From Alphaproteobacteria bacterium (lineage in GTDB: Bacteria > Pseudomonadota > Alphaproteobacteria > Micropepsales > Micropepsaceae), in contig JAHFQC010000014.1 of assembly GCA_023259375.1 (NCBI GenBank), positions 1 through 64,000 of the forward strand: a stretch of DNA of 64,000 nt. Direction: 5' to 3'. The position numbers and the translations under genes were made by a program. Shown one piece after another: positions 23,602 through 48,834 of this stretch. The stretch's first letter is position 1, and every line of letters begins with the position of its first letter. The notes under the pieces are model-generated. The model had not been told where the DNA came from. It searched no databases and worked only from the letters and a program-made list of their open reading frames with translations.

Positions 23602-24305
23602 GTGTCGGGCACCAGGACCGAGCAAGTGCTAACCGAAACCAAGCTGCGTAACCTCAAGGCAAACGACAAGCTTTTCAAAGTGAACGATCGCGACGGCCTG
23701 TACGTGGCTGTCACGCCGGCCTGGGCGATCTCGTTCCGCTACAACTACTCGATCAACGGCAGGCAGGAGACCATTACCTTTGGGCGCTATGGGGTGGGTG
23801 GCATCACACTGTCGGAGGCCCGCGAGCAGCTCGGAGAAGCCAAGAAGATGATCTCGGCGGGGAAGTGGCCGGCCAAGGAAAAGGCACGGGATAAGGCGCG
23901 GGTGAAGGGCGCTGAGACGTTTGGTGCTTGGACTGAAAAGTGGCTGCGCGGCCAAAGACGTTTGCGTGCGGGTCAAGCTATGTATTGCCGTCGCGCTATG
24001 GCACGGACCTACCAATGAGCAGCGCCACGCTCAACCAAGTCTTGTCGCTGACCTACAGATTGGCTCAGAAGGAGGGCAAGTCTCTCGTCAAATTTGGGCC
24101 GCATGATCTTCGCAGAGCTGCGAGCACGCTATTGCACGAAGCCGGGTACAACACAGACTGGATTGAAAAGTGCCTTGCGCACGAACAGCGGGGCGTGCGG
24201 GCTGTCTACAACAAAGCCGAATATCGTGAGCAACGGACCGCCATGCTGCAAGACTGGGCCGATATGATAGACGGATGGATTACTAGGCGGCCACAAGCGA
24301 CGTGA
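23602..24305 (+). pseudogene. Tyrosine integrase, internally deleted and frameshifted
   Basis: The N-terminal DUF4102-type arm-binding domain is intact (LTETKLRNLKANDK, DGLYVAVTP, TFGRYGVGGITLSEAREQL) up to FGAWTEKWLRGQ near 23957. The frame then changes, and in another frame come SYVLPSRYGTDLPMSSATLNQ and the catalytic C-terminus FGPHDLRRAASTLLHEAG with the HxxR box and EKCLAHEQRGVRAVYNKAEY with the final Tyr. Roughly 200 residues in the middle, including the first catalytic Arg, are missing. It must be inactive. Start is GTG at 23602 or 23626. Confidence 0.85.
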
Positions 24306-24632: not shown

Positions 24633-25982
24633 TTATCGGGCGCCGCAGCATTTCTTGTATTTCTTGCCGCTGCCGCATGGGCACGGATCGTTGCGGCCGG
24701 GCGTGGCGTCGGCCTTTTTCCGGTTGGGATGAAGTTCGTTCATGATGTTCGCAGGCGCGCGCTGCTGGCGGAATTCCGAGGCCATGAAGCGCATTGCGGA
24801 ATCGATGTGGGTGAAGAACTTCTTGTAACCCGCACAGAGATAGTTGAGGCCGTATTCGCCGTCCGGCGTGGTGTCGAAGCGGTTGCGCGGACATTCGCCG
24901 TTGCAGGCAAAGCGGACTTCGCATTCGCGGCAGTATTTCGGCAGCGTGTCGGATTTGTCCTTGCCGAATTTTCGCTGCTGCGGCGATGCGATCATGGATG
25001 CCATCGGCTGCTCCATGATGTTGCCGAGTCGGTTTTCCGGAAAGACGTAGTGATCGCAGGAATAGAGTTCGCCGGTGTGCTCGATGGCCAGCGCATCGCC
25101 GCAGGTCGGATTGTAGACGCAAATGCTTTGCGGCATGCCGAGCCAGCTTTCGAGGGCGACATCGAACACCTGCACGAATGTCTTGCCGACGTCCTTCTGC
25201 ACCCATTCGTCGAACACGCCGCACAGGAATTCGCCGAACTGCAGCGAGCCGACCGTGTATTCGCTGACCGCTGCGGCGGCATTCTGTTCCGGACCGGGCT
25301 GCTTGAGGCCGTAAGAATCCGGCACTTCGGTGATCCGCTGCACCAGCGGGATGAACTGGATGAACTGGCTGCCGATCTTCTTGAGGAAGCGATAGACTTC
25401 GACCGGATGGGCGGCGTTCTGGCTGTGCACCACAGTTAAGGTGTTGAAATCGACCTTGTGCCGCTTCAGGCACTCGAGTCCCTCCATCACTTTGTCGAAG
25501 CTCGGCCGGCCGCCTTTGTTGACGCGATAGCAGTCGTGCAACTCCCGGGGGCCGTCGATCGAGATGCCGACCAGAAAGCGGTTTTCCGCGAAGAAGTCGG
25601 CCCAGGCGTCGTTGATCAGAATGCCGTTGGTCTGAAAGCCGTTCTCGATCCGCTTGCCGCCGGCGTGCTTCTGCTGCAGCGCCACGACTTTCTTGAAATA
25701 GTCGACGCCGAGCAGGGTCGGCTCGCCGCCTTGCCAGATGAAGCTGATGGTCTGCGCCTCCTGGCCTTCGATGTACTGCCGGATGAATTCTTCCAGCACG
25801 TCATCGGGCATTGCCCACGACTTGGTGTCGGGAAACAGGTGCTCCTTTTCGAGATAGAAGCAGTACTTACAATCGAGATTGCAGATCGGTCCGGTGGCTT
25901 TGGCCAGCACATTGAAGCCGGGAAGGCGCGCGCCGGTGATGGGACCTTTGTCGCTCATGGAGATTGTCGCTTCCTCGGGCAT
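24633..25982 (-). CDS. Anaerobic-type sulfatase-maturating enzyme (radical SAM) with SEC-C tail
   Basis: 449 residues from the ATG at 25982, preceded by AGGGA; a longer frame from 26165 lacks support. CNLDCKYCFYLEKE is the radical-SAM cluster of anSMEs, followed by WQGGEPTLLG and GISIDGP. SPASM-type cysteines follow (CGDALAIEHTGELYSCDHY, CRECEVRFACNGECPRN), holding two further Fe-S clusters. A C-terminal SEC-C motif (GRNDPCPCGSGKKYKKCCG, about 429-447) is an added zinc module. It oxidises the active-site Cys of sulfatases to formylglycine in the cytoplasm; six Cys-type sulfatases lie downstream. Confidence 0.92.
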   Translation of the reverse strand: MPEEATISMSDKGPITGARLPGFNVLAKATGPICNLDCKYCFYLEKEHLFPDTKSWAMPDDVLEEFIRQYIEGQEAQTISFIWQGGEPTLLGVDYFKKVVALQQKHAGGKRIENGFQTNGILINDAWADFFAENRFLVGISIDGPRELHDCYRVNKGGRPSFDKVMEGLECLKRHKVDFNTLTVVHSQNAAHPVEVYRFLKKIGSQFIQFIPLVQRITEVPDSYGLKQPGPEQNAAAAVSEYTVGSLQFGEFLCGVFDEWVQKDVGKTFVQVFDVALESWLGMPQSICVYNPTCGDALAIEHTGELYSCDHYVFPENRLGNIMEQPMASMIASPQQRKFGKDKSDTLPKYCRECEVRFACNGECPRNRFDTTPDGEYGLNYLCAGYKKFFTHIDSAMRFMASEFRQQRAPANIMNELHPNRKKADATPGRNDPCPCGSGKKYKKCCGAR

Positions 25983-26384
25983 TTTCCGTTCCCTGTCTGA
26001 CCGCATTCGCTTCAGCGTTTTAACGCTATACCAGAACCCCGCAAGCGGGAGCGCGCTTGGATCGATCAGATGTCTGTTTTCGTAAGCATTTGTCCTGATG
26101 TGAGACGGCACGACAGGTGAGGGGTTTTCCTGAGTGGCGTTTGGCCGCTCAGCGCGTACGTTCATCCTGCGGCGCCTGACCGCGGAGCAGGGTGCCTGTG
26201 TAAGACAACGTTGTCAACCGTTCGGCAATATTGTAGGCTGTATCTGGTTCCGGGCCTTGGACGGAGGCCTTTCCGCCCGTCAGCGGCGTCTTAACGCGCT
26301 GGGGCGCCTCGGCTTTCGCCGGAATGGGCCCGGAAAGAAAACGAATACGTGCTGCCACCAAGGCGGCCGGATAGGGAGGTCGAA
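25983..26384. promoter_or_regulatory. Divergent control region, maturase / first sulfatase
   Basis: Besides the LacI-type palindrome at 26204-26215 no other feature is clear. It should carry promoters for both the maturase and the sulfatase, so both may answer to the same repressor. Confidence 0.5.
26204..26215. promoter_or_regulatory. LacI-type operator, site 1
   Basis: Perfect 12-bp palindrome GACAACGTTGTC, 169 bp before the first sulfatase and 221 bp from the maturase start. The central CG and symmetric halves fit LacI-family operators. The same sequence recurs at 29890 and 37756, with a near copy at 48937. Confidence 0.7.
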
Positions 26385-27962
26385 GTGCAAAAACGAGAAT
26401 TCTTGAAGGCTGGCGTTGCCGCGTCGATGTTCGGTTGTCTGGCCGCCGCCACGAACGCAAAACCCGTCAAAGAGGGCAGCCGGTCGGCTCCCAAGAAGAC
26501 CTATAACCTTGTGTTCATCACGCTCGACGACATGAACTGGTCGATGCCGAGCTTCATGGGCGGCAAGAGCGGCCTAACCCCCAATCTCGACAAGCTGGCG
26601 GCGCGCTCGATGCGCTTCGTCAACTGCCGCGCCGCAGTGCCGATTTGTCAGCCGTCGCGCGAAGCGATGATGACGGGACTTTTCCCGACTCACAGCGGTG
26701 CCAGCGGATTTACGCCGATCTATGAAGGCACACCGACGCTCGCTTCGATTCTACATGGCGCCGGCTACTTCACGGCCTGCATCCATAAGGTCGGGCACAT
26801 GTTCCCGCTGAGCTGCTTCCCGTGGGACTATTTCCGCCCCGGCAAGGACCGCAGCCCGAAGGAATACGAAACCCAGGTTCGCATCTCGATCGACGCCGCC
26901 AAGGCCGCGGGCAAGCCATTCTTCGTCTGCTGCAACATCAACGATCCGCATCGGCCGTTCTACGGCAGTCCGGAAGCGGCCAACCTCGATCACAATCTGG
27001 AAGCCGATTACAAGATTCCGCGCGAAGTCGGACCGGATGACGTGTCGGTGCCGCCATTCCTCGAAGATCTGCCGGATATCCGCAAGGAATTTGCGCAGTA
27101 TTCGAACAGCGTGCAACGTCTCGATATGAGCATCGGCCGGATTCTCAAGGTGATCGAGGACCGCGGTTGTGCCCATAACACGATCGTTTTCTTCAGTTCC
27201 GACCACGGCATGCCGTTCCCGTTCGCGAAGGCAACCGGATACGACAGCGGCTCGCGCACGCCGGCACTCGTGTATTGGCCGGGCATGAAGTCGCCCCGGT
27301 CCTTCTCCGAATTAACCCAGAACGTCGACTATATGCCGACCCTTCTCGACATCATGGGGATGCCGCTTCCAGAGCGTCTGGACGGCAAGTCGTGGCTGCC
27401 TCTGATCGAAAGGAATGCGTGGAAGCCGCGTCAGTACGTCGTCACGTCGGTCAACACCCTGTCGAGCGGCATCAATTATCCGACCCGTACGGTTCAGGAT
27501 ATGAAGTACTCGCTGATTTTTTCGCCATGGGCCGATGGAAAATTCCGCTACACGTCGGAGTCGATGTTCGGTCTGACGTTCGCGGCGATGGTAAAAGCCG
27601 CCGAAACCGATTCCAAAATTGCTGCCCGCGTCGAGCAGCTGACGGTCTCGACGCCTTACGCGTTTTATGACCTCGAGGCCGATCCCGGCCAACGCGTGAA
27701 CCTCATTGACCGGCCGGAATACAAGGCGAAAATCGCGGAGATGCAGGCGTTCCTATTGCACCATATGGAGCAAACGGGCGATCCGCAGCTCGAGAATTTC
27801 AAGATCTTCCTCGCCGGCGGAAAGCCCAAGGTCGTGCAGTTCCCGAAGATCTATCGTCTCGAGGACCACACCTATGAGTTCCCGGCCGACCCGGTCTCAG
27901 CCGTGCCGGCCATACAGGAAATCAACAAGGCAAATCAGGCGCTGATTGCCGGAAGTAAGTAA
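26385..27962 (+). CDS. S1 sulfatase 1 (heparan-sulfatase-like)
   Basis: 525 residues from GTG at 26385, five bases after GGGAGG. The leader KREFLKAGVAASMFGCLAAA is a weak Tat or Sec signal. Metal-binding Asp pair in ITLDDMNWS, and the formylglycine site is CQPSR with Cys88. The second signature reads GYFTACIHKVGHM, with HK where most have GK. SSDHG provides the later metal ligands. The build resembles N-sulfoglucosamine or uronate sulfatases more than arylsulfatases, but the true substrate is unknown. First gene of the sulfatase run, likely LacI-regulated. Confidence 0.87.
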   Translation: MQKREFLKAGVAASMFGCLAAATNAKPVKEGSRSAPKKTYNLVFITLDDMNWSMPSFMGGKSGLTPNLDKLAARSMRFVNCRAAVPICQPSREAMMTGLFPTHSGASGFTPIYEGTPTLASILHGAGYFTACIHKVGHMFPLSCFPWDYFRPGKDRSPKEYETQVRISIDAAKAAGKPFFVCCNINDPHRPFYGSPEAANLDHNLEADYKIPREVGPDDVSVPPFLEDLPDIRKEFAQYSNSVQRLDMSIGRILKVIEDRGCAHNTIVFFSSDHGMPFPFAKATGYDSGSRTPALVYWPGMKSPRSFSELTQNVDYMPTLLDIMGMPLPERLDGKSWLPLIERNAWKPRQYVVTSVNTLSSGINYPTRTVQDMKYSLIFSPWADGKFRYTSESMFGLTFAAMVKAAETDSKIAARVEQLTVSTPYAFYDLEADPGQRVNLIDRPEYKAKIAEMQAFLLHHMEQTGDPQLENFKIFLAGGKPKVVQFPKIYRLEDHTYEFPADPVSAVPAIQEINKANQALIAGSK

Positions 27963-28052: not shown

Positions 28053-29558
28053 ATGAACGACAACAATATGAGCCGCCGCAACATTCTCGGTGCTTTGTCC
28101 ACGGTCATGGCGACTGCTGCCGTTGCCGGCGGTGCGGCCGAAGCTGCGGCCAAACCGAAGAAGCGCCCGAATATCGTGTTCTTCCTCGGTGAAGGTATCC
28201 GCTTCGACGAATACAGCTTCATGGGCAACCCGATCATCCAGACGCCGAATATCGACCGGCTGGCCCGCGAAGGCGTCGTGTTCAACAATGCCTTCTGCAC
28301 CAACGCGCTGTGCTCGCCGTCGCGTGCGACGATCATGACGGGCGCCTATTCGCACTCGACCGGCGCCGTCAATAACCTGAACAATTTCACCGACAAGAAC
28401 TTCCTGCACATCTCCGACGTGCTGCATGCGCAAGGCTACGATGTGGCGTTCCTCGGCAAGAACCATATCGGCGGCGAGCTGATGGACCACTACTGGGACT
28501 ACTACCTCAGCTATGAAGGGCAGGGGAAATACTACAATCCCCGCATGATTGAAGGCCGCAATGGCAAGTTTGAATCGGAGCGTCAGTTCAACGGCTATAC
28601 CGACGACGTGCTTGGCGATCACGCCGTGAAATGGCTGAACGAGCGCAACTCCGATAAGCCGTTCTGCCTGTTCTTCTGGTTCTATGCGCCGCATGCCCCC
28701 TTCTACCGGGCGCGCCGCCAGGTTGACCGCTTCAACGGCGTGCGGATTCCCAAGCCGTCGAACTTCGACGAAGACTTGGCCGGCTATCCGGGCAAGCCGA
28801 AGGGCGTCGCCAACGCATTCAACAAGATCGGTACCACGCTGCTCGATCCGGTGCGCAGCCTCGAAGAGGTCGTCAAGGATCATTACTGCGGCGTCGAGAA
28901 CAACGACGAGAACGTCGGTCGTGTTCTCAAGGTCCTCACCCAGCAGAACGTGCTCGACGAGACCGCGATCCTGTTCAGCTCGGATCACGGCTTCTTCCTG
29001 GGCGAGCACACCTTCTACGACAAGCGCCTGATGTACGAACCGTCGATTCGGATTCCGATGATCATCCGCTATCCGAATCGCATCAAGGCAGGTTTGCGGC
29101 GTGACGAGATGGTGCTGACCGTGGACATGGCGCCGACCATTTTCGATCTCGTCGGTGCAAAGACGCCGGCCACCGTCGAAGGAAAGAGCATGATGCCTCT
29201 GGCCGAGGGCAAGCCCGCGGGCAACTGGCGCAAGGATTGGCTCTACGAATATTACGAATTCCCGGGGTTCGAGAACGTTCGTCCGTGCCGCGGCGTTCGC
29301 ACCGAACGCTACAAATACATCCACTATTTTTACGAAACCCAGGAATATGAACTCTACGATCTCAAGACCGATCCGGAAGAGATGAATAATCTCTATGGCA
29401 AGCCCGGCTATGAGGCGATCACAAAACAGCTGCAGACGCGGCTGGAGCAGTTGCGGCACGAGTTGAAGGACCACTACGAGTTCAAGCCGACCGCTTATCC
29501 AGAGGCCTTAAGAAAATATATGCCCGACACTCTGCCGACCTCGGGTGGGCGGAGCTGA
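28053..29558 (+). CDS. S1 sulfatase 2
   Basis: 501 residues with a Tat-like leader (SRRNILGALSTVMATAAVAGG). The formylglycine site is CSPSR with Cys87; the second signature is GYDVAFLGKNHIGG, and SSDHGFFLGEH supplies later ligands. The usual N-terminal Asp pair is replaced by LGEGIRFDE, so one calcium ligand differs from the classic set; such variants exist in S1 subfamilies. Full length and in frame. An ATG at 28068 is an alternative start. Probably cotranscribed with sulfatase 1. Confidence 0.87.
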   Translation: MNDNNMSRRNILGALSTVMATAAVAGGAAEAAAKPKKRPNIVFFLGEGIRFDEYSFMGNPIIQTPNIDRLAREGVVFNNAFCTNALCSPSRATIMTGAYSHSTGAVNNLNNFTDKNFLHISDVLHAQGYDVAFLGKNHIGGELMDHYWDYYLSYEGQGKYYNPRMIEGRNGKFESERQFNGYTDDVLGDHAVKWLNERNSDKPFCLFFWFYAPHAPFYRARRQVDRFNGVRIPKPSNFDEDLAGYPGKPKGVANAFNKIGTTLLDPVRSLEEVVKDHYCGVENNDENVGRVLKVLTQQNVLDETAILFSSDHGFFLGEHTFYDKRLMYEPSIRIPMIIRYPNRIKAGLRRDEMVLTVDMAPTIFDLVGAKTPATVEGKSMMPLAEGKPAGNWRKDWLYEYYEFPGFENVRPCRGVRTERYKYIHYFYETQEYELYDLKTDPEEMNNLYGKPGYEAITKQLQTRLEQLRHELKDHYEFKPTAYPEALRKYMPDTLPTSGGRS

Positions 29559-32791: not shown

Positions 32792-34324
32792 ATGAGCAAG
32801 ACACTTGAGATGTCCCGGCGCTCGATGATCGGCGCCACGATGATGGTTCCGGTGGCGGCGCAGGCCGGAGCGAAGTCCAAACCGGGGGCTGATAAGCGCC
32901 CCAATTTCCTTTTCATCTTCCCAGACCAATTCCGTTTCGATTGGCTGAGCGGAACACCCGATCTGCCGGTCAAGACGCCGAACCTGGACGCGGTTGCCGC
33001 GCGCGGCGTGCGTTTTCAGAAGGCTGTGGTTTCGGCGCCGGTATGTGCGCCGTCGCGCGCCTGTTTGGCCTCCGGTCGTGAATACGACAGCTGCGGCGTC
33101 GACAGCAATATGGGCGTGTTCCCGTCCACCCAGGCGACCTACTACAAGAAGCTGCGCGACTCCGGCTATTTTGTCGGCGCCTGCGGCAAGCTCGATCTCT
33201 CCAAGCCCAATTTCGACAATGGTCTCGACGGCAAGAACCACATGGTCGAGTGGGGCTTCTCGGACATGATCAATTGCGCCGGCAAAGGCGATGCGGTGTT
33301 CCGCTGGGAAGAGCACCACAAGCCGTTTGAGCCCTACATGGTCTACATGATGAAGAAGGGCGTGGGCGAGATGCACGCGGCCGATCTCGGGCTCCGCGGC
33401 GGCGGCAAGGGCGGCGAGGGCAACAACGCCCAGGGTTACGCCAAGGTTTTTCCCACGCCGCTCGACGATGAGGATTACCAGGACAACTGGATCGGCCGTT
33501 GCGGACTCGATCTGATGAAGAAGTTCCCGGCCGGCAAACCCTGGCATCTGGTGGTGAATTTCGCCGGTCCTCATAATCCTGAGGATATCACGCGGCGGAT
33601 GGAAGCGACGGTTCGCGACCGCAAGTGCCCGGCTCCGAATGACTCCACGGAACTCAATGCCGATACGCACAACGCCATTCGACAGAACTACACCGCGATG
33701 GTCGAGAACCTCGATCGTTGGGTCGGCATCTTCGTTGAAGAATTGAAGCGCCGCGGCGAGTACGAGAACACCATCATCGTGTTCTCGAGCGACCACGGCG
33801 AGATGCTGGGCGATCACAATCGCTGGGCCAAGAACGTTCCCTATGAGGCCTCGATCGGCGTGCCGCTGATCGTCGGCGGTCCGGGCATGAAGCCGCGCAA
33901 GAGCGACGCGCTAGTCAGCATGATCGACATCAGTGCGACGTTCCTCGATTACGCCGGAGCCGAACGCCCCGAAGGCATGACAGCGAAGTCGTTCCGCCCG
34001 CTGCTCGAAGGCAAGACTGACAAGCATCGCGATTACGTCCAGTCGGGTCTCTTCAATTGGCGTCTGGTTGCTGACAGCCGCTACAAGCTGGTGCAGGGCT
34101 TCGATCCCGCGGTTAGGGAACGCGGCGGCAGCGTCGCCAAGGGTAAGGAACTGCCGGTGGTGTTGTTCGATCTCGCGCTCAATCCCGAAGAGACCAAGAA
34201 CTACGCCGCGGCCGAGCCGCAGGTTGTCGAGCGTCTGACGAAGCTGTTGCCGGAACGCAATCCCGATCCGGGTTACGGCGTCGTTACGCCCGAACGTCAG
34301 AAGAACTATGGACCGAAAGGCTGA
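32792..34324 (+). CDS. S1 sulfatase 3
   Basis: 510 residues, Tat-like leader (MSRRSMIGATMMVPVAAQAGA). The formylglycine site is CAPSR with Cys85. IFPDQFRFDWLSG stands in the first metal-binding strand and SSDHGEMLGDH in the later one. The second signature is GYFVGACGKLDLS. DQFRFD/GDHNRWAKN features are common in choline-sulfatase-like and polysaccharide sulfatases. Preceded by a hairpin and followed by a strong terminator, it may form its own transcription unit. Confidence 0.87.
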   Translation: MSKTLEMSRRSMIGATMMVPVAAQAGAKSKPGADKRPNFLFIFPDQFRFDWLSGTPDLPVKTPNLDAVAARGVRFQKAVVSAPVCAPSRACLASGREYDSCGVDSNMGVFPSTQATYYKKLRDSGYFVGACGKLDLSKPNFDNGLDGKNHMVEWGFSDMINCAGKGDAVFRWEEHHKPFEPYMVYMMKKGVGEMHAADLGLRGGGKGGEGNNAQGYAKVFPTPLDDEDYQDNWIGRCGLDLMKKFPAGKPWHLVVNFAGPHNPEDITRRMEATVRDRKCPAPNDSTELNADTHNAIRQNYTAMVENLDRWVGIFVEELKRRGEYENTIIVFSSDHGEMLGDHNRWAKNVPYEASIGVPLIVGGPGMKPRKSDALVSMIDISATFLDYAGAERPEGMTAKSFRPLLEGKTDKHRDYVQSGLFNWRLVADSRYKLVQGFDPAVRERGGSVAKGKELPVVLFDLALNPEETKNYAAAEPQVVERLTKLLPERNPDPGYGVVTPERQKNYGPKG

Positions 34325-34445: not shown

Positions 34446-34488
34446 ATCAGCCGGAGCAGTGAGTTTCAAAGCAATCAAGGAGCGAGAT

Positions 34489-36087
34489 ATGACGGGGTCC
34501 GACGTGAACCGCAGGAATTTTCTCGAAGGTGCAGGTTTGGCAGCCGCTGCCGCCGGTGCGCTGGCGGCCAATGTTCCGGCGCAGGCGGCCGCGATGACGG
34601 GCGCCATCCGCAGTCAGATCGCCAAGCGCTGCAACATCGTGATGTTCATGCCTGATGAGCTGCGGGCCGATGCGCTCGCCTGTTACGGCAACCCTGTCTG
34701 CAAGACGCCGAATTTCGACAAGCTCGCGTCGCAAGGTACGCTGTTCGAGAATTGCCATGTGCAGTATCCGGTGTGCGGCGCCTCGCGTTGCTCGATACTG
34801 ACCGGCTGGCCGACCAGCGTGCGTGGTCATCGCAGCCTGTACTATTTCCTGCGTCCGGACGAACCGAACCTGTTCCGCTATCTGAAGCAGGCCGGTTACG
34901 ACGTGTTCTGGTTCGGCAAGAACGATGCGCTGGCCGCCGAAACATTCTATGACTCCGTGACCTATTGGAGCGAGAACGCCGGCTTCCGCGCCGAAGGCGG
35001 TTTCCCCAATTCCGTTGGTCCCGGCAACACCTTCCTGTTCCCCGCCGGTGGTGACCGCCGCAAGACGCATGACTATCCGCTGGTCAAGGCGGCGATCGAA
35101 ATCATCGAGCGCAAGCAGCACGACAAGCCGTTCTGTATTTTTCTTCCGATTAACAACCCGCATCCGCCGTACACGGCGCCGGCGGATTTCCACAGTCTCT
35201 ATACCAAGACGGCACTCGACGTGGTGCCGCCTGTTACCAAGCGCAAGCCAAGCCATCACCAGGGCATGCGCGAGCTGTACGGTCTTCAGAACCTGCCGGC
35301 GTCAACCTTCCATGATGTCCGGGCGGTCTATTACGGGCAGGTCAGCTACACCGACTGGCTGCTCGGCGAAGTCATGGAGGCGCTGGATCGCACCGGCCGC
35401 AGCGCCGACACCGCGCTGATGACCTTCTCCGATCATGGCGATTACGCCGGCGACTACGGCTTGGTCGAGAAATGGCCGAGCGGGCTCGAGGATTGCCTGA
35501 CGCATGTGCCGCTCATCATCCGCGCGCCCGGCGGCGTTGCCGGTCATCGCGTCAAGGAGATGAACGAGGTCTACGATGTCATGCAGACCAGCATCGACCT
35601 TGCCGGGACGACGACCAATCACACCCACTTCTCGCGCAGCCTGATGCCGCAGTTGCAGGGCGCCGCCGGCGATCCGGGGCGCTGCGCCTTCGCTGAAGGC
35701 GGCTACAATATCTACGAGCCGCAGTGCTTCGAGCCTGTCAACGCGATTTCCGGTATTTATGGCCCCAAGGTGAAGCTGCAGAACTTCCGCCCCGATACGG
35801 TGAGCCGCAGCGCGATGGTCCGGACCCATACGCACAAACTGATCTCGCGGCCCGACGGCGTTTCGGAACTGTACGACCTGAAGCGTGATCCGCACGAGAC
35901 GAGCAATCTTTATGGCGATATGTCCGTTGCCAAGGTGCAGGCGGATCTCTCCGGCAAGCTGCTCAACCACTACATCCGCACAACTGGTATTGCGCCGACG
36001 GACAAGGATCAGCGCGCTTCTCCGATGTTTGCCTCCTCGCGCGAAGCCCCGCCGGCGGATTGGCAAAAAACCGTTCTTGATAAGTGA
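34489..36087 (+). CDS. S1 sulfatase 4
   Basis: 532 residues from the ATG at 34489, six bases after AAGGAG. Tat-like leader NRRNFLEGAGLAAAAAGALA. The formylglycine site is CGASR (Cys96), the less common C-x-A-S-R form. MFMPDELRADALACYG is the first metal strand, FSDHGDYAGDYG the later one, and GYDVFWFGKNDAL the second signature. The carboxylesterase follows after 37 bp on the same strand. Its promoter must lie after the terminator at 34412-34445. Confidence 0.87.
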   Translation: MTGSDVNRRNFLEGAGLAAAAAGALAANVPAQAAAMTGAIRSQIAKRCNIVMFMPDELRADALACYGNPVCKTPNFDKLASQGTLFENCHVQYPVCGASRCSILTGWPTSVRGHRSLYYFLRPDEPNLFRYLKQAGYDVFWFGKNDALAAETFYDSVTYWSENAGFRAEGGFPNSVGPGNTFLFPAGGDRRKTHDYPLVKAAIEIIERKQHDKPFCIFLPINNPHPPYTAPADFHSLYTKTALDVVPPVTKRKPSHHQGMRELYGLQNLPASTFHDVRAVYYGQVSYTDWLLGEVMEALDRTGRSADTALMTFSDHGDYAGDYGLVEKWPSGLEDCLTHVPLIIRAPGGVAGHRVKEMNEVYDVMQTSIDLAGTTTNHTHFSRSLMPQLQGAAGDPGRCAFAEGGYNIYEPQCFEPVNAISGIYGPKVKLQNFRPDTVSRSAMVRTHTHKLISRPDGVSELYDLKRDPHETSNLYGDMSVAKVQADLSGKLLNHYIRTTGIAPTDKDQRASPMFASSREAPPADWQKTVLDK

Positions 36088-37768: not shown

Positions 37769-37842
37769 AAATTCGGATACGGCGCATAACAATACCGGCC
37801 GAAAACATAGCGTTCCTTTCGGCATTCAGGGAGATGGCTGAA

Positions 37843-39633
37843 ATGGGTATCAAGCAAAGCACGACCACGGGCGCCTCGACGCGCCGGCAAGTTGTAACCC
37901 TCATGGGGGCTAGCGCGGCCGCCGCTCTGTTGCCGATGTCTGTCGCTTCGGCCGCAAAGGTGAAAGGCGCTGCAGCCCGTCCAAACATCGTCCTGATCGT
38001 GCTCGACGACGTCGGCTTTTCCGATCTTGGCGCCTTTGGCTCCGAAATCCGCACGCCGTATATCGACGCGTTGGCCAGGACTGGCCTGCGTTACAATCAC
38101 TTCGACACCAAGGCGATCTGCGCACCCTCGCGCGCCTCGCTGCTGACCGGCCGCAATTGCCAGACCGTCCATATGGAAGACCTGCCGCCGACCCGCGTGA
38201 AAGGGCCTGCGCTGGGCACGCCGATGGGGCAGGGCCTCCTCGATCCGGCCAAGGGACTGGCGGCGAGCGGCGAGATGCCGTTGAACGCCGAGACGCTGCC
38301 GATGGCGTTGAAGTCCGCAGGCTATTCGACCAGTGCTCTCGGCAAGTGGCACCTGTGTCCGATCTACTCCGATCAGCCGGAGCGCAACAAGGTTTGGATG
38401 CCGCTGCAGCGCGGCTTCGACTACTTCTACGGTTTTCTCAGCGGACACTCCGATCAGTATCATCCGCCGATCGTCGAGAACAACAATCCGCCGTTCGATC
38501 CTTTCCGTCCGGGCTATCACATGTCGGTCGATCTGATCGATCACGCCATCACCCAGATGGATCCGGAAAAGGAGCCCGGCAAGCCGAAGTTCCTGTATCT
38601 CGCGATGGGCGCGGCTCATTCGCCGCTGCAAGTCCCCAAGGCCTACATCAATGCCTATCGCGGCCAATACGATCTGGGCTGGGACGCGTTGCGCCAGGCG
38701 CGTTTCGAGCGTCAGAAGCGGATGGGGATCATTCCGGCGTCGACCAAGCTGCCGCCGCGCGAAAAGGGCGATGCCGCGTGGGATTCGCTCGACGATCAGC
38801 ACAAGCGCGTGTTCGCCCGCTTCATGGAGACCTACGCCGGTTTCATCACCCATGCCGACGAGCAGATCGGCCGGCTGGTCAATTATCTGAAAACGACTGG
38901 GCAGTACGACAACACGCTGTTCGTGCTGATCACCGATAACGGCGCGGCTTCGGAAGCTGGTGCCAATGGCGGCTTCTTCCACGAATACAATGAAACCGTT
39001 CCGGTATCCGAGATGTATGCGCATCTCGATGAAGCCGGTGGTCCGTCGACCCAGATGCTTTATCAGCGTCCGTGGGCTTATGCGGGCGATACGCCGTTCC
39101 GCCGTTACAAGCTATGGCCTTACTTCGGCGGTGTGCGCACACCTTTGATCGTCAGCTGGCAGGCGCAGATCAAGGATCACGGCAAAATCCGTTCGCAGTA
39201 TACCGACATCATCGATCTGGCTCCGACGCTGCTTGAAGCGGCGGGCTGTGCGTTCGCTGGCAGCATTGGCGGCACTGAACAGATTCCGGTCGCGGGAAAG
39301 TCGATCGCCAAGACCTTCACGTCGGCGACGGCTCCGACCCGCGATGTCCAGTTCTTCGAACTGCGCGGCAACCGCGCCATTAAGCAGGGCAAGTGGCGGG
39401 CCGTCGCAATGCACAAACTGGGCACCTCTTACGACGACGATCAATGGCAGCTGTTCGACACCGAAGCCGATTTTTCGGAATCGACGGATCTATCGAAGAA
39501 GTTCCCCGCGAAGCTGGAAGAGTTGAAGAAGCTGTGGTGGGCGGAAGCCAAGAAATACACGGATTCCCCTGTGATCGAACCGTTACCCAATCTCTACAAG
39601 ATGAACGGTATCGGCGATGCGTTTGCAGATTAG
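37843..39633 (+). CDS. S1 sulfatase 5 (arylsulfatase-type)
   Basis: 596 residues from the ATG at 37843, nine bases after AGGGAG; an ATG at 37834 touches that site and is unlikely. Tat leader STRRQVVTLMGASAAAALLP. LIVLDDVGFSDLGAFG has the classic Asp pair, CAPSR carries Cys93, and GYSTSALGKWHL is the standard second signature. ITDNG gives the later ligands. This set is that of arylsulfatase A/AtsA-like enzymes. The GH3 gene begins 11 bp later, so the two are cotranscribed. Confidence 0.88.
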   Translation: MGIKQSTTTGASTRRQVVTLMGASAAAALLPMSVASAAKVKGAAARPNIVLIVLDDVGFSDLGAFGSEIRTPYIDALARTGLRYNHFDTKAICAPSRASLLTGRNCQTVHMEDLPPTRVKGPALGTPMGQGLLDPAKGLAASGEMPLNAETLPMALKSAGYSTSALGKWHLCPIYSDQPERNKVWMPLQRGFDYFYGFLSGHSDQYHPPIVENNNPPFDPFRPGYHMSVDLIDHAITQMDPEKEPGKPKFLYLAMGAAHSPLQVPKAYINAYRGQYDLGWDALRQARFERQKRMGIIPASTKLPPREKGDAAWDSLDDQHKRVFARFMETYAGFITHADEQIGRLVNYLKTTGQYDNTLFVLITDNGAASEAGANGGFFHEYNETVPVSEMYAHLDEAGGPSTQMLYQRPWAYAGDTPFRRYKLWPYFGGVRTPLIVSWQAQIKDHGKIRSQYTDIIDLAPTLLEAAGCAFAGSIGGTEQIPVAGKSIAKTFTSATAPTRDVQFFELRGNRAIKQGKWRAVAMHKLGTSYDDDQWQLFDTEADFSESTDLSKKFPAKLEELKKLWWAEAKKYTDSPVIEPLPNLYKMNGIGDAFAD

Positions 39634-42479: not shown

Positions 42480-43841
42480 ATGATTGCGCCATCCCCGCTT
42501 CCTCCCACTGCGGCCGGTAACGGAGCGCGTGGATCGCTGCGCACCATCGTCATGGTCGTCGGCCTGTTCTTCGCCTGGGGCTTCATCACGGTTCTCAACG
42601 ACCCGCTGATCGCCAAGCTGAAGGGCCTGTTCTCGCTCAACTACACCGAGGCGATGCTGACTCAGTTCGCCTTCTTCCTCGGCTACTTCATCTTCTCGAT
42701 CCCAGCCGGGCAGGTGCTGTCGCGGCTCGGCTATATCCGCACCATTGTTCTCGGTCTTGTCGTGATGGCAGCCGGCTGTCTGTTGTTCGCGCCTGCGGCG
42801 ATGGCGGGAACCTATATCGGATTCCTCGGCGCCTTGTTCATCGTGGCGGCGGGCATCACCACGCTGCAGGTCGCGGCCAATCCCTATATCGCCGTGCTTG
42901 GCCCGGCTGAGACGTCGTCCAGCCGTCTGACGCTGGCGCAGGCGTTCAATTCGCTGGGAACCTTCATCGGCCCGTTCATCGGCGCGATCTTCCTGCTGCA
43001 GAACGGTGTCGCCGCACCCACGGGCGCCAACCCGGAAGCGCTCAAGGCGGCGCGTGTCGCCGAGGCCACGCTGGTGCTGAAGCCGTTCCTGGTCATCGCC
43101 GCAGTGCTCCTGGTGTTCGCACTTCTGTTCTGGTTCAAGCGCCGTGCGCCGGCCCCTTCCACCGGCGGTTCGCAGTCTGGCGGATTCCATGTCGGGCTTC
43201 TGACCAAGTCGCGGCAGATCCTCGGCGTGCTGTCGATCTTCCTCTATGTCGGCGCGGAGGTCGCGATCGGTTCTGGCCTGACCAACTATCTGATGCAGGA
43301 CTCCGTACTCGGCTCTCAGTCGGGCGCGATCGGTAAGTCTGCCGCCGGTCTGATGGGCTCGCTGTTCCACCACGACGTTGCCTTCAACGCCGCCCAGGTG
43401 GCCGGCACCATGGTCAGTATCTATTGGGGGCTGGCGATGGTCGGCCGCTTCATCGGCTCGGCGGTGCTGGCGCGCGTCAATCCCGGCAGGGTCCTCCTGG
43501 TCCACGCTGTTGCGGCGATGGCGCTGGCGCTGGTGTCGTCGCAGACCTTCGGCGTCACGGCCGCGATTGCGGTGCTGGCGATCGGCTTTGCCAATTCGAT
43601 CATGTTCCCGACCATCTTCACCTTGGCCCTCGACGGCCTTGGCGAGGAAACCTCGGGCGGATCGTCGCTGTTGTGCATGGCGATTGTCGGTGGCGCTTTG
43701 ATCCCAGTTGCGTTCGGCGCCCTGGCCGATGCCAAAGGGCTGGCCTTCGCATTGATCCTGCCGGCGGCCTGTTACATGCTGATCGCCATCTACGGCTGGC
43801 TCGCCGCGAGGGGCCTGAAAAATACAGCTTCGAATGCCTAG
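42480..43841 (+). CDS. FucP/GluP-like sugar:H+ symporter (MFS, FHS family)
   Basis: 453 residues, about 12 helices. FAWGFITVLNDPLIAKLK matches the first helix of FucP with its key Asp, while the fourth helix reads TTLQVAANPYIAVLG with Gln where E. coli FucP has Glu, as in glucose/galactose permeases. Fucose, galactose or glucose are therefore all possible. GRFIGSAVLARV and NSIMFPTIFTLALDGLG are family motifs. It lies between two GH3 genes, 14 bp before the second, and should import the monosaccharides they release. Confidence 0.87.
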   Translation: MIAPSPLPPTAAGNGARGSLRTIVMVVGLFFAWGFITVLNDPLIAKLKGLFSLNYTEAMLTQFAFFLGYFIFSIPAGQVLSRLGYIRTIVLGLVVMAAGCLLFAPAAMAGTYIGFLGALFIVAAGITTLQVAANPYIAVLGPAETSSSRLTLAQAFNSLGTFIGPFIGAIFLLQNGVAAPTGANPEALKAARVAEATLVLKPFLVIAAVLLVFALLFWFKRRAPAPSTGGSQSGGFHVGLLTKSRQILGVLSIFLYVGAEVAIGSGLTNYLMQDSVLGSQSGAIGKSAAGLMGSLFHHDVAFNAAQVAGTMVSIYWGLAMVGRFIGSAVLARVNPGRVLLVHAVAAMALALVSSQTFGVTAAIAVLAIGFANSIMFPTIFTLALDGLGEETSGGSSLLCMAIVGGALIPVAFGALADAKGLAFALILPAACYMLIAIYGWLAARGLKNTASNA

Positions 43842-43855
43842 GGCAGGGGAAGACG

Positions 43856-46105
43856 ATGACACGTTCCGAGAAATTTGCCTCTTCGTGTTTGGCGATAGCG
43901 TTAGCTCTTGGTGCTTCGGCCGGGGCGGCCTTGGCTGCGGATAGCAAACCCGCGGCGCGCCCATGGATGAACGCGGCCCTATCGCCCGACGCCCGGGCGG
44001 AACTGGTGCTCAAACAGATGAGCGCCGCCGAGAAGCAATCGCTCGTGCATGGCATCTATCCGATCGCTGTTTCATTCCTGCCGCCCAAACAGATTCCCGC
44101 CGATGCGGTGGGGTCGGCGGGGTATGTGCCGGGCGTGCCTCATCTCGGTATCCCTGCCTTGCAGGAGACGGATGCCAGTCTTGGTATCGCCGATCCCGCG
44201 AATATCCGCTCCAACGACGTGGCGACGGCGTTGCCGTCCAGTCTGGCCACGGCGGCCAGCTTTGATGCCGATATCGCGTACGCGGGTGGCGCTACCATCG
44301 GCAAAGAGGCGCACAGCAAAGGCTTCAATGTGCTGCTGGCCGGTGGCGTGAATCTGGCCCGCGATCCGCGCAACGGCCGCAATTTCGAATATCTCGGCGA
44401 GGATCCGCTTCTCGCCGGTGTGCTTGATGGCGCCCATGTCCGAGGCATCCAGGACCAGCATGTGATCTCGACCGTCAAGCACTATGCGGTCAACGATCAG
44501 GAGACCAACCGCAACTTCATCGACTCCGTTATCGACGAAAAGTCGATGCGGGAGTCCGATCTCCTGGCGTTTCAGATTGCCATCGAACAGGGTAAGCCCG
44601 GTTCGGTGATGTGCTCCTATAACCTAATCAACGGGGTTTGGGGCTGCGGCAACGAATTTCTTCTCAACAAGGTTCTGAAAGGCGATTGGCAGTATCCCGG
44701 CTGGGTGATGTCCGACTGGGGCGCCGTCCATGCGCTCGATTACGCCACGAAGGGGCTCGACCAGCAGTCGGCCGCCGAATTCGACACCAAGCCGTTCTTT
44801 GCCGAGCCGCTCACCCTGGCGCTCAAGAATGGCAGCGTTCCGGCCAGCCGTCTCGATGACATGGCGCGGCGCGTTTTGCGGTCGATGTTTGCCGTGGGTA
44901 TCGTCGATCACCCGCCGGTCAAGCAGCCGGTCGATGCGGCTGCGGGCGCTGCGGCGGCAAAGAAGACGGCCGAGGCGGGCATTGTCCTTTTGAAGAATTC
45001 CGTCGACGTGCTGCCGATTGCCAAAACGGCAACCAAGATCGCCGTGATCGGCGGCAATGCCAACGTCGGCGTGATTTCGGGCGGCGGTTCTTCGCAGGTG
45101 ATTCCTGCCGGTTCTATGGAACTGCCGTTCGGCGGTGGTGGCATCGCCGGGCTGCTCGGCAAGGTCGTGTATCATCCGTCGTCGCCGCTGGAGGCCATCA
45201 AGAAGCTGGCGCCGAACGCGGCGGTGAAGTTCTCCGATGGACGTTATGTTTCCGATGCGGTCCGGCTGGCGAAGTGGGCCGACGTCGTTGTCGTGTTCGG
45301 CACCAAGTGGCAGGCCGAAGGCGGCGACGTGCCGGACCTTACGTTGCCCGATGGTCAGGACGCGCTGATCGATGCGGTCTCCTCCGCCAATGCCAAAACG
45401 GTGGTGGTGCTGGAGACTGGTAATCCCGTCGCCATGCCGTGGATCTCGAAAGCCGCGGCTGTGATGGAAGCGTGGTATCCGGGCGCGCGTGGCGGTGAGG
45501 CCATTGCCGATGTGTTGTTCGGCGTCGTCAATCCTTCGGGCCGTTTGCCGATTTCGTTCCCGGCTGACATTGCCCAGAATCCGCGTCCTCAGATCGCTGG
45601 ATATGACGTCGAGCTTCCCCAGATGGGCGGCGATTTCGACAAGGCCAAGACGATCCCTGTGCGCTACACCGAGGGTGCGGACATCGGTTATCGCTGGATG
45701 GCCAAGAAGGATCTGAAGCCGCTGTTCTCGTTCGGCTATGGCCTCAGTTACACGATGTTTGCTTATAGCAATCTCGCCGTCACCGGCGGCGATACCGTGA
45801 CCGTGGCCTTCGACGTGACCAATACCGGCAGTCAAGCCGGCAAGGATACGCCGCAGGTTTATCTCACCAACGCCGCCGGCGAAAAGACAGCGCGGTTGAT
45901 CGGCTTCAGCAAAGTCGATCTCAAGCCGGGTGAGACCAAGCATGTAGCGCTCACCGCTGATCGCCGTCTGCTTGCTGATTTCGATACGGCGGCGCATGGC
46001 TGGAAGGTCAAAGGCGGCACCTACACCGTGACGCTGGCGAAGTCGGCCACGGATCCGGTGGTGTCGTCTTCGGCGCAGGTGAGCGCAGCGGTGGTGAAGC
46101 CGTAA
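43856..46105 (+). CDS. GH3 beta-glycosidase (second)
   Basis: 749 residues from the ATG at 43856; a much longer frame upstream lies inside the permease and is rejected. Signal peptide ends near [19 protein letters not shown] and the nucleophile Asp287 in VMSDWGAV mark the GH3 barrel; [12 protein letters not shown] and a fibronectin-III-like domain end it. No PA14 insert. Shorter than, and only distantly like, the enzyme at 39644. Its C-terminus is duplicated as the fragment at 24346-24501. Confidence 0.9.
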
Positions 46106-46111
46106 TCAATC

Positions 46112-46173
46112 CCCCGGCCGCACCGGGGAGGTCGGCAAGGGTGTGTCATTGCTTTTGTTTGGCACACCCTGCC
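46112..46173 (+). other. Paired hairpins before tatA
   Basis: CCCCGG (46112-46117) with CCGGGG (46123-46128), and GGCAAGGGTGTG (46134-46145) with CACACCCTGCC (46163-46173, one bulged A). They lie between GH3 and tatA and may separate the two transcripts or set their relative levels. Confidence 0.45.
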
Positions 46174-46190
46174 GTTCTGGAGGAAATGTC

Positions 46191-46382
46191 ATGGGCAGCT
46201 TGAGCATTTATCACATCCTGGTTGTTGCGCTAGTTCTGCTGATGCTGTTCGGCGGCAAGGGCCGTATCTCGGATACGATGGGCGACTTCGCCAAAGGCCT
46301 GAAGAGTTTCCGCAAAGGGCTCGCGGAAGACGTCGATAATTCCCCGGCGAAGAGTGCTTCAGACGAAAGTCCCGCACGCTAA
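46191..46382 (+). CDS. tatA: TatA twin-arginine translocase subunit
   Basis: 63 residues; GGAGG lies eight bases before the ATG. One N-terminal membrane helix ([16 protein letters not shown]) is followed by the amphipathic helix [16 protein letters not shown] and a charged tail. The FG hinge is present. TatA forms the export pore for folded proteins with RR leaders. Finding it alone, between a GH3 gene and a sulfatase, is unusual: tatA normally sits with tatB and tatC. Several sulfatases here carry Tat-like leaders, so it is probably a locus-specific extra copy. Confidence 0.9.
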
Positions 46383-46402: not shown

Positions 46403-47776
46403 ATGAACCGCAGAAAGCTTCTTGGATCGGCGGTGGCCGGGGCGGCTCTATCGATGCTGATCCCGCCGGCGTTCGCAGCCGCGCGCAAGCCGAATTTCAT
46501 CGTCATTTATTGCGATGATCTCGGTTACGGCGATGTCGGCGTTACCGGTGGCACCACCATTCCAACGCCGAACATTGATGCGATGGCCCGAGAAGGCCTG
46601 ACGCTGACCGACTATTATGCGCCGGCCAATCTGTGCACGCCCTCGCGCGCCGGAATGCTGACCGGGCGCTATGCGATCCGCACCGGGTTGGGGCGCGGCG
46701 TCATCATGCAGAACGAGACCCGCGGCCTGCCGCTCTCGGAAGTGACGATCGCCAAAGCCTTGAAGCCGGAATACGTCAGCGCGCTGATCGGCAAATGGCA
46801 CCTCGGCCATACCGGTCCGGCGTGGCCGCCGACCAAGCGCGGCTTCGACCTGTTCTACGGTCTACCGTACAGCCACGATATGGAGCCGCTGAAGCTCTAT
46901 GAGGATACCGGCAAAAACATCACCGAGCTGCCTTTCGAGTATGTGCGCCTGCAGGAGATGTTCTTCGCCCGCGCCGAGAAATTCCTCGAAGAGAACAAGA
47001 ACCGTCCGTTCTTCCTCGATCTCGCCTTAAGCGGACCGCATCTGCCGAATTATCCGTTCGGGCAGTTCGCCGGCAAATCCGCCGCCGGCGCCTACGGCGA
47101 TGTGGTGATGGAGATCGACGACATCGTCGGCCGTCTTCTCGCCAAGCTGAAAGCCTTAGGGATCGACGACAACACGCTGGTGATCTTCACCTCCGACAAT
47201 GGCCCGTGGTTCGAAGGCTCGACGGGCAATTTGCGCCAGCGCAAGGGGGGCGGGGCTTATGACGGCGGTTATCGCGTGCCGTTCGTGGCCCGCATGCCGG
47301 GCCGCATTCCGGCCGGAAGCCGCAGCAACGTCATCGCCATGGGCATCGATTTCCTGCCGACCTTCTGCAAGTTGGCCGGAAAGCCTTTGCCGAAAGGCGT
47401 TCAGCTCGACGGTATGGATATTTCGAACGTGTTGATGCACGGCGCGTCGAGCCCGCATCAGGAACTGCTGCTGTTCAGCAACGAAGATCTCGTCGGTATC
47501 CGCACCCAGGAATGGAAATACACCTCGGCCGATTTCTACTTGGCCAATCTGATGACGTTCAAAGGGCGCGGGTATCCACAGCTCTACGACATGCGCGACA
47601 AGACCGAGAGCTACAGTGTGGCCTCGCTGCATCCCGACATCGCCAAGGCGATGGACAAGCGTTTGCGGCAACTCCAGGCCGCGTTTGCGCCGTTGCGGAC
47701 CACACCCGCGGCGCCTGAGCGTCCAATGCCGAAGAAGCATGTGCCCGAGGTATGGGACGATTTCGGCGCCGACTAA
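46403..47776 (+). CDS. S1 sulfatase 6 (arylsulfatase-type)
   Basis: 457 residues, 20 bp after tatA with GGAGGGG before the ATG. Leader NRRKLLGSAVAGAALSMLIPPAFA is Tat-like. IYCDDLGYGDVGVTGG has the Asp pair, CTPSR carries Cys78, and YVSALIGKWHLGH is the second signature; FTSDNGPWFEGSTG supplies the later ligands. It is compact and resembles arylsulfatase A / N-acetylgalactosamine-6-sulfatase-like enzymes. The mutarotase follows after 11 bp. Confidence 0.88.
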   Translation: MNRRKLLGSAVAGAALSMLIPPAFAAARKPNFIVIYCDDLGYGDVGVTGGTTIPTPNIDAMAREGLTLTDYYAPANLCTPSRAGMLTGRYAIRTGLGRGVIMQNETRGLPLSEVTIAKALKPEYVSALIGKWHLGHTGPAWPPTKRGFDLFYGLPYSHDMEPLKLYEDTGKNITELPFEYVRLQEMFFARAEKFLEENKNRPFFLDLALSGPHLPNYPFGQFAGKSAAGAYGDVVMEIDDIVGRLLAKLKALGIDDNTLVIFTSDNGPWFEGSTGNLRQRKGGGAYDGGYRVPFVARMPGRIPAGSRSNVIAMGIDFLPTFCKLAGKPLPKGVQLDGMDISNVLMHGASSPHQELLLFSNEDLVGIRTQEWKYTSADFYLANLMTFKGRGYPQLYDMRDKTESYSVASLHPDIAKAMDKRLRQLQAAFAPLRTTPAAPERPMPKKHVPEVWDDFGAD

Positions 47777-47787
47777 GGTTGCAGGAT

Positions 47788-48834
47788 ATGACGAAGCAAA
47801 TTCCGGTACGCATTTCTCGCCGCAGCGGCTTGGCCGCTTTGGCGTTCTGTGTGCTGGCATCGGCTTCGGCCTTGGCGGCTTGGACGCCATCCGGTGCGGC
47901 CGGTGATCTGATCGTACTGCAGGGTGATCAGCTCCGCGCCCATATTGCGCCCCAGCGCGGCGGCGGGATGGTCGGCCTGGAATTCCGCTATAAAGGGCAG
48001 TGGATTGAGCTGTTGTACCGCGGGATGGATTTCAGTCCGACTTCGGATTGGGACGGCAAGGCGCCGATCCTGTGGCCGGCGACGGGACGCAACGCGGCAA
48101 TTGATCCCGCTAGCAATGCCAAAAAGCCGGGCTGGATCGCGAACGGCACGTTCTATCCGATGCCGATCCATGGCTTTGCTCGCGATCTGCCGTGGACCGT
48201 TGTGGGAGAGACCGAAACAGCTGCGGGCAAGACCGTCACGTTAAGCCTTGGCGATAATCCCCAGACGCGCAAGCTCTATCCGTTCGGGTTCAAAGTCACG
48301 ACGACCTACACCGTCGGGAAAAATACCGTGACGATCCGTCAGCAGGTGCATGCCGCGGAAAACAATGTGGGGCCGATGCCGTTCTCGATCGGCAATCATA
48401 TGACCTACAACGTCCCGCTGGTTCCAGGCGGCGACGCTGGGGCGGTCACCTTCGACACTCCCGCGACCAAACGGCTCCTCCTCGACGATGGAGGCATTCC
48501 AACGGGAGCCTCCGTGCCGTTTGAGGTAGCTGCTCCACTGCCGCTTACCCAACTCGGCACGCGCAAGGCGTGGTCGCTGACCGGATTCCCGAAAGATGCA
48601 GTTTGGGTCAAAGTGATCGACCCGAGCGGCCTCACCTTGGCGGTATCGCATCGTGAAAGCCGTTCGCCGGCCGGCGATCCCGTCTTTTTCAACTTGTGGG
48701 GAGACCCGCAACGCGGGTTCTTTGCCCCCGAGCCGTGGGCGGGAAAACAGAACTCGCTGGTCACGCAGGACGGAACCGTCCGCCTCGATCCCGGGGCTGA
48801 TTTCGACTGGACGATCATCGTCACGCTCAACTGA
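47788..48834 (+). CDS. Periplasmic aldose 1-epimerase-like protein
   Basis: 348 residues from the ATG at 47788, with a leader of the type SRRSGLAALAFCVLASASALA. The beta-rich mutarotase fold is suggested by HIAPQRGGGMVGLEFRY, PMPIHGFARDLPW (catalytic His region) and SIGNHMTYNVPL. ESRSPAGDPVFFNLWG holds a possible second ligand site. It should interconvert anomers of the freed sugar so that the permease receives the right form. Could also be a hexose-phosphate mutarotase relative with another ligand. Confidence 0.75.
   Translation: MTKQIPVRISRRSGLAALAFCVLASASALAAWTPSGAAGDLIVLQGDQLRAHIAPQRGGGMVGLEFRYKGQWIELLYRGMDFSPTSDWDGKAPILWPATGRNAAIDPASNAKKPGWIANGTFYPMPIHGFARDLPWTVVGETETAAGKTVTLSLGDNPQTRKLYPFGFKVTTTYTVGKNTVTIRQQVHAAENNVGPMPFSIGNHMTYNVPLVPGGDAGAVTFDTPATKRLLLDDGGIPTGASVPFEVAAPLPLTQLGTRKAWSLTGFPKDAVWVKVIDPSGLTLAVSHRESRSPAGDPVFFNLWGDPQRGFFAPEPWAGKQNSLVTQDGTVRLDPGADFDWTIIVTLN

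Follow-up and report, generated by a model that had tools for sequence, protein, structure and literature searches.

A solo tatA gene beside a sulfatase gene as a candidate accessory component of Tat export in a Micropepsaceae genome

The window, that is the whole 64,000-nucleotide stretch of alphaproteobacterial DNA analysed here, carries a tatA gene placed 20 nt before a sulfatase gene, inside the only sulfatase locus of its genome and apart from the housekeeping tat genes. We propose that it encodes an accessory TatA, co-transcribed with the adjacent sulfatase gene, which joins the housekeeping TatBC and supports Tat export of the sulfatases upon induction of the locus. We put the probability of this reading at about 0.5.

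An earlier note on this DNA had described a solo tatA between a GH3 and a sulfatase gene, 20 bp before the latter. The open reading frame is indeed found there, intact, TatA-type and with a good ribosome-binding site. Its immediate surroundings are the following:

43424-46105, forward strand: GH3 glycoside hydrolase gene; start uncertain, the true gene begins after the mechanical ORF start
46109-46173, forward strand: two tandem hairpins in the gap between the GH3 gene and tatA, lacking a T tract; putative element
46179-46183, forward strand: ribosome-binding site of tatA, GGAGG in the sequence, 7 nt 5' of the ATG
46191-46382, forward strand: solo tatA, 63 amino acids, ATG at 46191, TAA at 46380-46382
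46403-47776, forward strand: S1 sulfatase gene, leader MNRRKLLGSAVAGAALSML, formylglycine motif CTPSR, 20 nt 3' of tatA
47788-48834, forward strand: aldose-1-epimerase-like gene with an RR leader; the ORF opens at 47752, the ATG at 47788 is likelier

The start of tatA lies 85 nt past the end of the GH3 gene (46105), and the sulfatase gene has a GGAGG ribosome-binding site of its own. Neither tatB nor tatC was found near the solo tatA in the sulfatase locus. The region 46106-46200 has a folding-energy z-score of -2.55, and the second hairpin, with its long near-perfect stem, is unique in the window. A terminator between the GH3 gene and tatA was rejected because the hairpins have no T tract; an RNA-stabilising or attenuating element is possible.

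The encoded protein is TatA-type, and from its sequence we predict transport activity with TatBC. In a Pfam profile search it matches PF02416 (TatA_B_E) with 22.2 bits (cut-off 21), while the NCBIfam TatA/TatE models match it slightly below their curated cut-offs (77.8 vs 83 and 47.4 vs 53.9). E. coli TatA aligns with its residues 1-48. The layout comprises a transmembrane helix at about 3-20, an FGG hinge at 20-22, an amphipathic helix at about 23-48 and a short polar tail; a structure model of moderate confidence (pLDDT 68) places helices of the expected lengths at 3-20 and 23-48. Equivalents of E. coli TatA F20, G21 and F39 are kept, Phe40 aligning with E. coli Phe39, and the polar residue at position 8 is His8, as in the housekeeping TatA, including that of relatives. 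The hallmarks of TatB, a Glu8 and an extended C-terminal part, are absent from this 63-residue protein with His8, as are the enterobacterial TatE charges E2/3 and K8 (criterion of PMC5777986), their places being taken by Ser3 and His8. Solo and housekeeping TatA of the genome share 60% identity. Over the 50 codons compared, their genes differ at 15 first, 8 second and 29 third positions; this mostly third-position divergence indicates that the solo tatA is, or until recently was, constrained at the protein level.

The genome (4.67 Mb in 155 contigs, 96.5% complete, estimated contamination 2.7%) has a single TatC, located with an adjoining TatB where contig C141 ends. The housekeeping tatA lies at the edge of contig C143, so that tatABC is spread over two contig ends. 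In the relative G076 these genes, at 87-91% DNA identity, lie together as an uninterrupted tatABC; the housekeeping set is therefore most likely whole and divided by the assembly only. Its presence makes the solo tatA a true extra copy, and the possibility raised in the earlier note, that the genome might hold no other tatA, falls away. There is some chance that C13, the contig that bears the solo tatA, is a contaminant, although in base composition it agrees with the housekeeping genes. Upstream of a very large, oppositely oriented gene lies a third TatA-like gene (C45:51537-51659; L002 1441-1740), which is divergent and has FA in place of the FG of the hinge.

All six S1 sulfatases of the genome are gathered between 26349 and 47776, in a locus of about 0.5% of the genome length; the one other PF00884 match in the genome is weak and lies outside. 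Besides the sulfatase gene next to tatA, the locus contains:

24633-26165, reverse strand: anaerobic sulfatase maturase (radical SAM, SPASM), divergent from the first sulfatase gene
26349-27962, forward strand: S1 sulfatase, KR leader, CQPSR
28053-29558, forward strand: S1 sulfatase, leader SRRNIL, CSPSR
32792-34324, forward strand: S1 sulfatase, leader SRRSMI, CAPSR
34459-36087, forward strand: S1 sulfatase, leader NRRNFL, CGASR
37834-39633, forward strand: S1 sulfatase, leader TRRQVV, CAPSR

The C-x-[PA]-x-R motif is present in all six. By a loose Tat rule five of the leaders qualify, each with RR, and the sixth has KR, which refines the initial count of five or six sulfatases with Tat-like leaders. 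Such leaders are frequent by the loose rule (11 of 41 called genes in the window and, in the family loci, 21 of 233), so a Tat-leader neighbour of tatA is weak evidence. The maturase matches TIGR03942 with 506 bits (cut-off 349); the FGE-type gene of the genome lies elsewhere, at C33. The locus combines an anaerobic sulfatase maturase with Tat-leader sulfatases. The idea that formylglycine is made in the cytoplasm and export through Tat follows is coherent with a locus holding both the maturase and all the S1 sulfatases, most with Tat-like leaders; the maturase in particular lends support to the cytoplasmic maturation, while its C-terminal SecA-type SEC-C zinc motif keeps a link to Sec possible. 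This motif might also physically connect formylglycine formation with SecB or the ribosome. In the literature, we found nothing usable that joins sulfatases with twin-arginine export.

Within the same genus, six other genomes carry an orthologue of the adjacent sulfatase (53-61%); so do four alphaproteobacterial genomes that are more distant, including three sphingomonads (62-66%). Orthologues with an intact start keep the RR in their leaders (G078, G081, G094, G101 and the more distant genomes); in G020 and G004 the ORFs as called have no leader. G078 has, two genes away from its sulfatase orthologue, a homologue of the GH3 gene (60.6%). No tatA was found in the orthologous or other fetched sulfatase loci, whether of the same genus, of sphingomonads or more distant, even by a lenient scan, whose model was built from alphaproteobacterial TatA and could miss distant TatA of other phyla. 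The survey consists of genome samples and covers sulfatase-rich phyla only via loci matching the adjacent sulfatase. The four genomes from outside the family that carry a sulfatase orthologue have one tatA each, and the near relative G076 has neither the adjacent sulfatase nor a second close tatA. G094 has a truncated tatA where one of its contigs ends. We rejected the idea that it had abutted the sulfatase contig of that genome: what precedes the sulfatase there is the tail of another reading frame, devoid of TatA features.

The check proposed in the earlier note, whether solo tatA recurs in other sulfatase loci, thus gave a negative answer in all the loci examined. Only in one genome did we see the pairing, and its arrangement is not conserved across species, judging by the six same-genus genomes and the other loci. 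Relatives with RR-leader sulfatases and no tatA in the locus imply that a dedicated channel is not required for sulfatase export; Tat-leader sulfatases in general appear to do without an extra TatA, and the tatA-sulfatase pair is an accessory feature of the window genome.

Spare tatA copies beside genes of exported enzymes are already known; it is the pairing with a sulfatase that was found in no relative examined. The window gene belongs with the TatA paralogues of substrate operons, being an extra copy beside a gene predicted, by its RR leader alone, to encode a Tat substrate, with the housekeeping tat genes elsewhere. The closest parallel is Campylobacter jejuni tatA2 (cj0786), placed at the end of the nap operon and co-transcribed with nap from the napA promoter (PMC4148689). 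Both are short extra TatA genes lacking tatB and tatC partners, next to known or predicted Tat-substrate genes and with the housekeeping tat genes elsewhere, but the neighbour is a nitrate reductase in one case and a sulfatase in the other (PMC4148689). TatA2 also lacks equivalents of Gln8 and Phe39 and is unable to act alone, whereas the window TatA has the Phe and a polar residue 8; and tatA2 is conserved in four Campylobacter species, whereas the window pairing was seen once (PMC4148689). Despite its position in the nap operon TatA2 is not NapA-specific (PMC4148689), so the position of a gene is no proof of specificity. The tatE gene of Pseudomonas stutzeri, as far as its citation in PMC4148689 goes, is likewise an extra TatA-type gene within a Tat-substrate cluster (nos); it is required for denitrification and accompanies a cofactor enzyme instead of a sulfatase. 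E. coli TatE is a stand-alone TatA-family gene away from tatABC, differing from the window TatA in its charges at Glu2/3 and Lys8 (PMC5777986).

The E. coli tatE gene is not known to lie within a substrate operon. Nearer to the window, the survey of 96 genomes of the family yielded close extra tatA genes in G003, G004 and G034 (two copies), plus the contig-end fragment of G094. The four complete copies all have a Tat-leader metallophosphoesterase as neighbour, and two of them a cupredoxin as well. They resemble the window gene in family, TatA length and Tat-leader neighbour, and differ in having sigma and anti-sigma neighbours and sequences that cluster together (89/51), while the tree does not place the window TatA. 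Their shared cassette consists of a sigma factor, a zinc-finger anti-sigma factor, a Tat-leader calcineurin-like phosphoesterase and the solo tatA (L055 2380-4218, L057 9532-11241, L058 9518-11200 and L059 7901-9562, with the cupredoxin in L057 and L059); G034 holds it twice.

How might an accessory TatA operate here? TatA is the multi-copy pore component and is recruited to the substrate-loaded TatBC receptor (PMC10092561; PMC5102672). The solo tatA, probably transcribed together with the adjacent sulfatase gene, would enlarge the pool of TatA protomers, and its product would join the single housekeeping TatBC receptor when RR-leader sulfatase precursors dock; with no second TatB or TatC in the genome, it must work with that receptor. 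An extra tatA under control of the substrate locus would supply more pore subunits just when the substrates appear, so that Tat export would be supported once the locus is switched on, provided that the sulfatases use Tat and that the added TatA does act as a boost. Of the boosted or dedicated Tat pore first suggested for this locus, we therefore keep the boost, as an even-odds inference. The dedicated pore is not supported, given the lack of a second TatB or TatC, and the conserved RR-leader sulfatases of same-genus genomes and sphingomonads with no tatA in the locus speak against it.

In favour of an accessory TatA we count the 20-nt spacing, the strong ribosome-binding sites, the kept TatA residues and the third-position divergence, as well as the single TatC, the gathering of all S1 sulfatases in one locus and the conserved RR leaders. 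The phosphoesterase-linked solo tatA genes of the family and the C. jejuni tatA2 and P. stutzeri tatE precedents add support. Counted against it are the pairing in one genome, the frequency of Tat-like leaders, the lack of NapA specificity of TatA2, and the two hairpins, which could separate tatA transcription from the GH3 gene. If the boost is real, the locus is another substrate operon with its own TatA, serving polysaccharide degradation and not a respiratory enzyme, and a simple system in which to ask whether TatA supply limits the export of large folded enzymes.

A possible alternative, to which we give clearly lower odds, is that the gene is a passenger: an old tatA duplicate or a transferred gene that reached the locus through a rearrangement or on an island and encodes an ordinary, redundant TatA without any particular tie to sulfatases. 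Solo copies of this kind are found in other genomes: in a sample of 298 Sphingomonadaceae genomes, 23 have two tatA matches and 22 (about 7%; L206-L249) have a tatA copy away from tatC, in varied neighbourhoods mostly with no obvious Tat substrate adjoining. None of these 22 genomes has a sulfatase near its solo tatA. The absence of an orthologous sulfatase locus with tatA also fits a passenger, as do integrase fragments just outside the locus. Against it stands the placement 20 nt before an RR-leader gene within the genome's only sulfatase locus (about 0.5%), unlikely for a random insertion, although this improbability concerns a single case chosen after the fact. The broken integrase itself (23602-24305, forward strand), whose Arm-DNA-bind_3 and Phage_integrase parts are in different frames, borders the sulfatase locus and suggests an old island boundary.

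Unlikely, in our judgement, is a substrate-specialised TatA that prefers large sulfatases which the housekeeping TatA does not serve, forming a dedicated pore on shared TatBC. TatA paralogues can differ in their substrates (PMC4148689; PMC5777986), and in the tree the solo protein falls outside the supported clade that holds the housekeeping TatA of its genome, hence is not a very recent copy. This placement led us to reject a recent duplication of the housekeeping tatA, although a forced grouping of the two is still not rejected (p-AU 0.13). Nor is shared ancestry rejected with the solo tatA genes of the sphingomonads (p-AU 0.40) or with those linked to the phosphoesterase (p-AU 0.37), the alignment of 56 columns being too short for the tree to place the window TatA. 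Relatives, moreover, carry orthologous RR-leader sulfatases and no solo TatA. We are similarly doubtful of a self-contained unit for sulfatase activation and export, in which its own radical-SAM maturase would make formylglycine in the cytoplasm and its own TatA, specialised for the large folded sulfatases, would form mixed pores on the housekeeping TatBC. Finally, it is very improbable that Sec exports the sulfatases, the maturase making formylglycine co-translationally, and that tatA serves other proteins: the SEC-C motif resembles the SecB-binding tail of SecA and one sulfatase has KR in place of RR, but RR followed by hydrophobic residues is seen in five of the six leaders and RR is conserved in the intact leaders of the adjacent-sulfatase orthologues.

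Some further solo tatA genes deserve mention. Among the sphingomonads, 20 of 21 solo tatA sequences cluster in the tree (87/83), with one unrelated long-branch row inside, and many of the proteins carry the sequence SETMGDFGKG. A PhoX phosphatase gene whose product has an RR leader is followed downstream by a short solo tatA of 52 amino acids (L213 1405-3946), and G567 of the same sample has two tandem tatA genes within one tatABC operon (L222 5907-6511). Plasmid-borne relatives, with 24 matching records, were rejected as solo copies: of the five regions inspected, three hold a full tatABC, one (Komagataeibacter) a tatA with tatC nearby, and one (Sinorhizobium) a tatA with neither tatC nor a sulfatase near. 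In three genomes of one alphaproteobacterial genus (L182, L185, L187), a shortened solo TatA with no clear Tat substrate adjoins an undecaprenyl-pyrophosphate-phosphatase-like gene, named by eye from its sequence.
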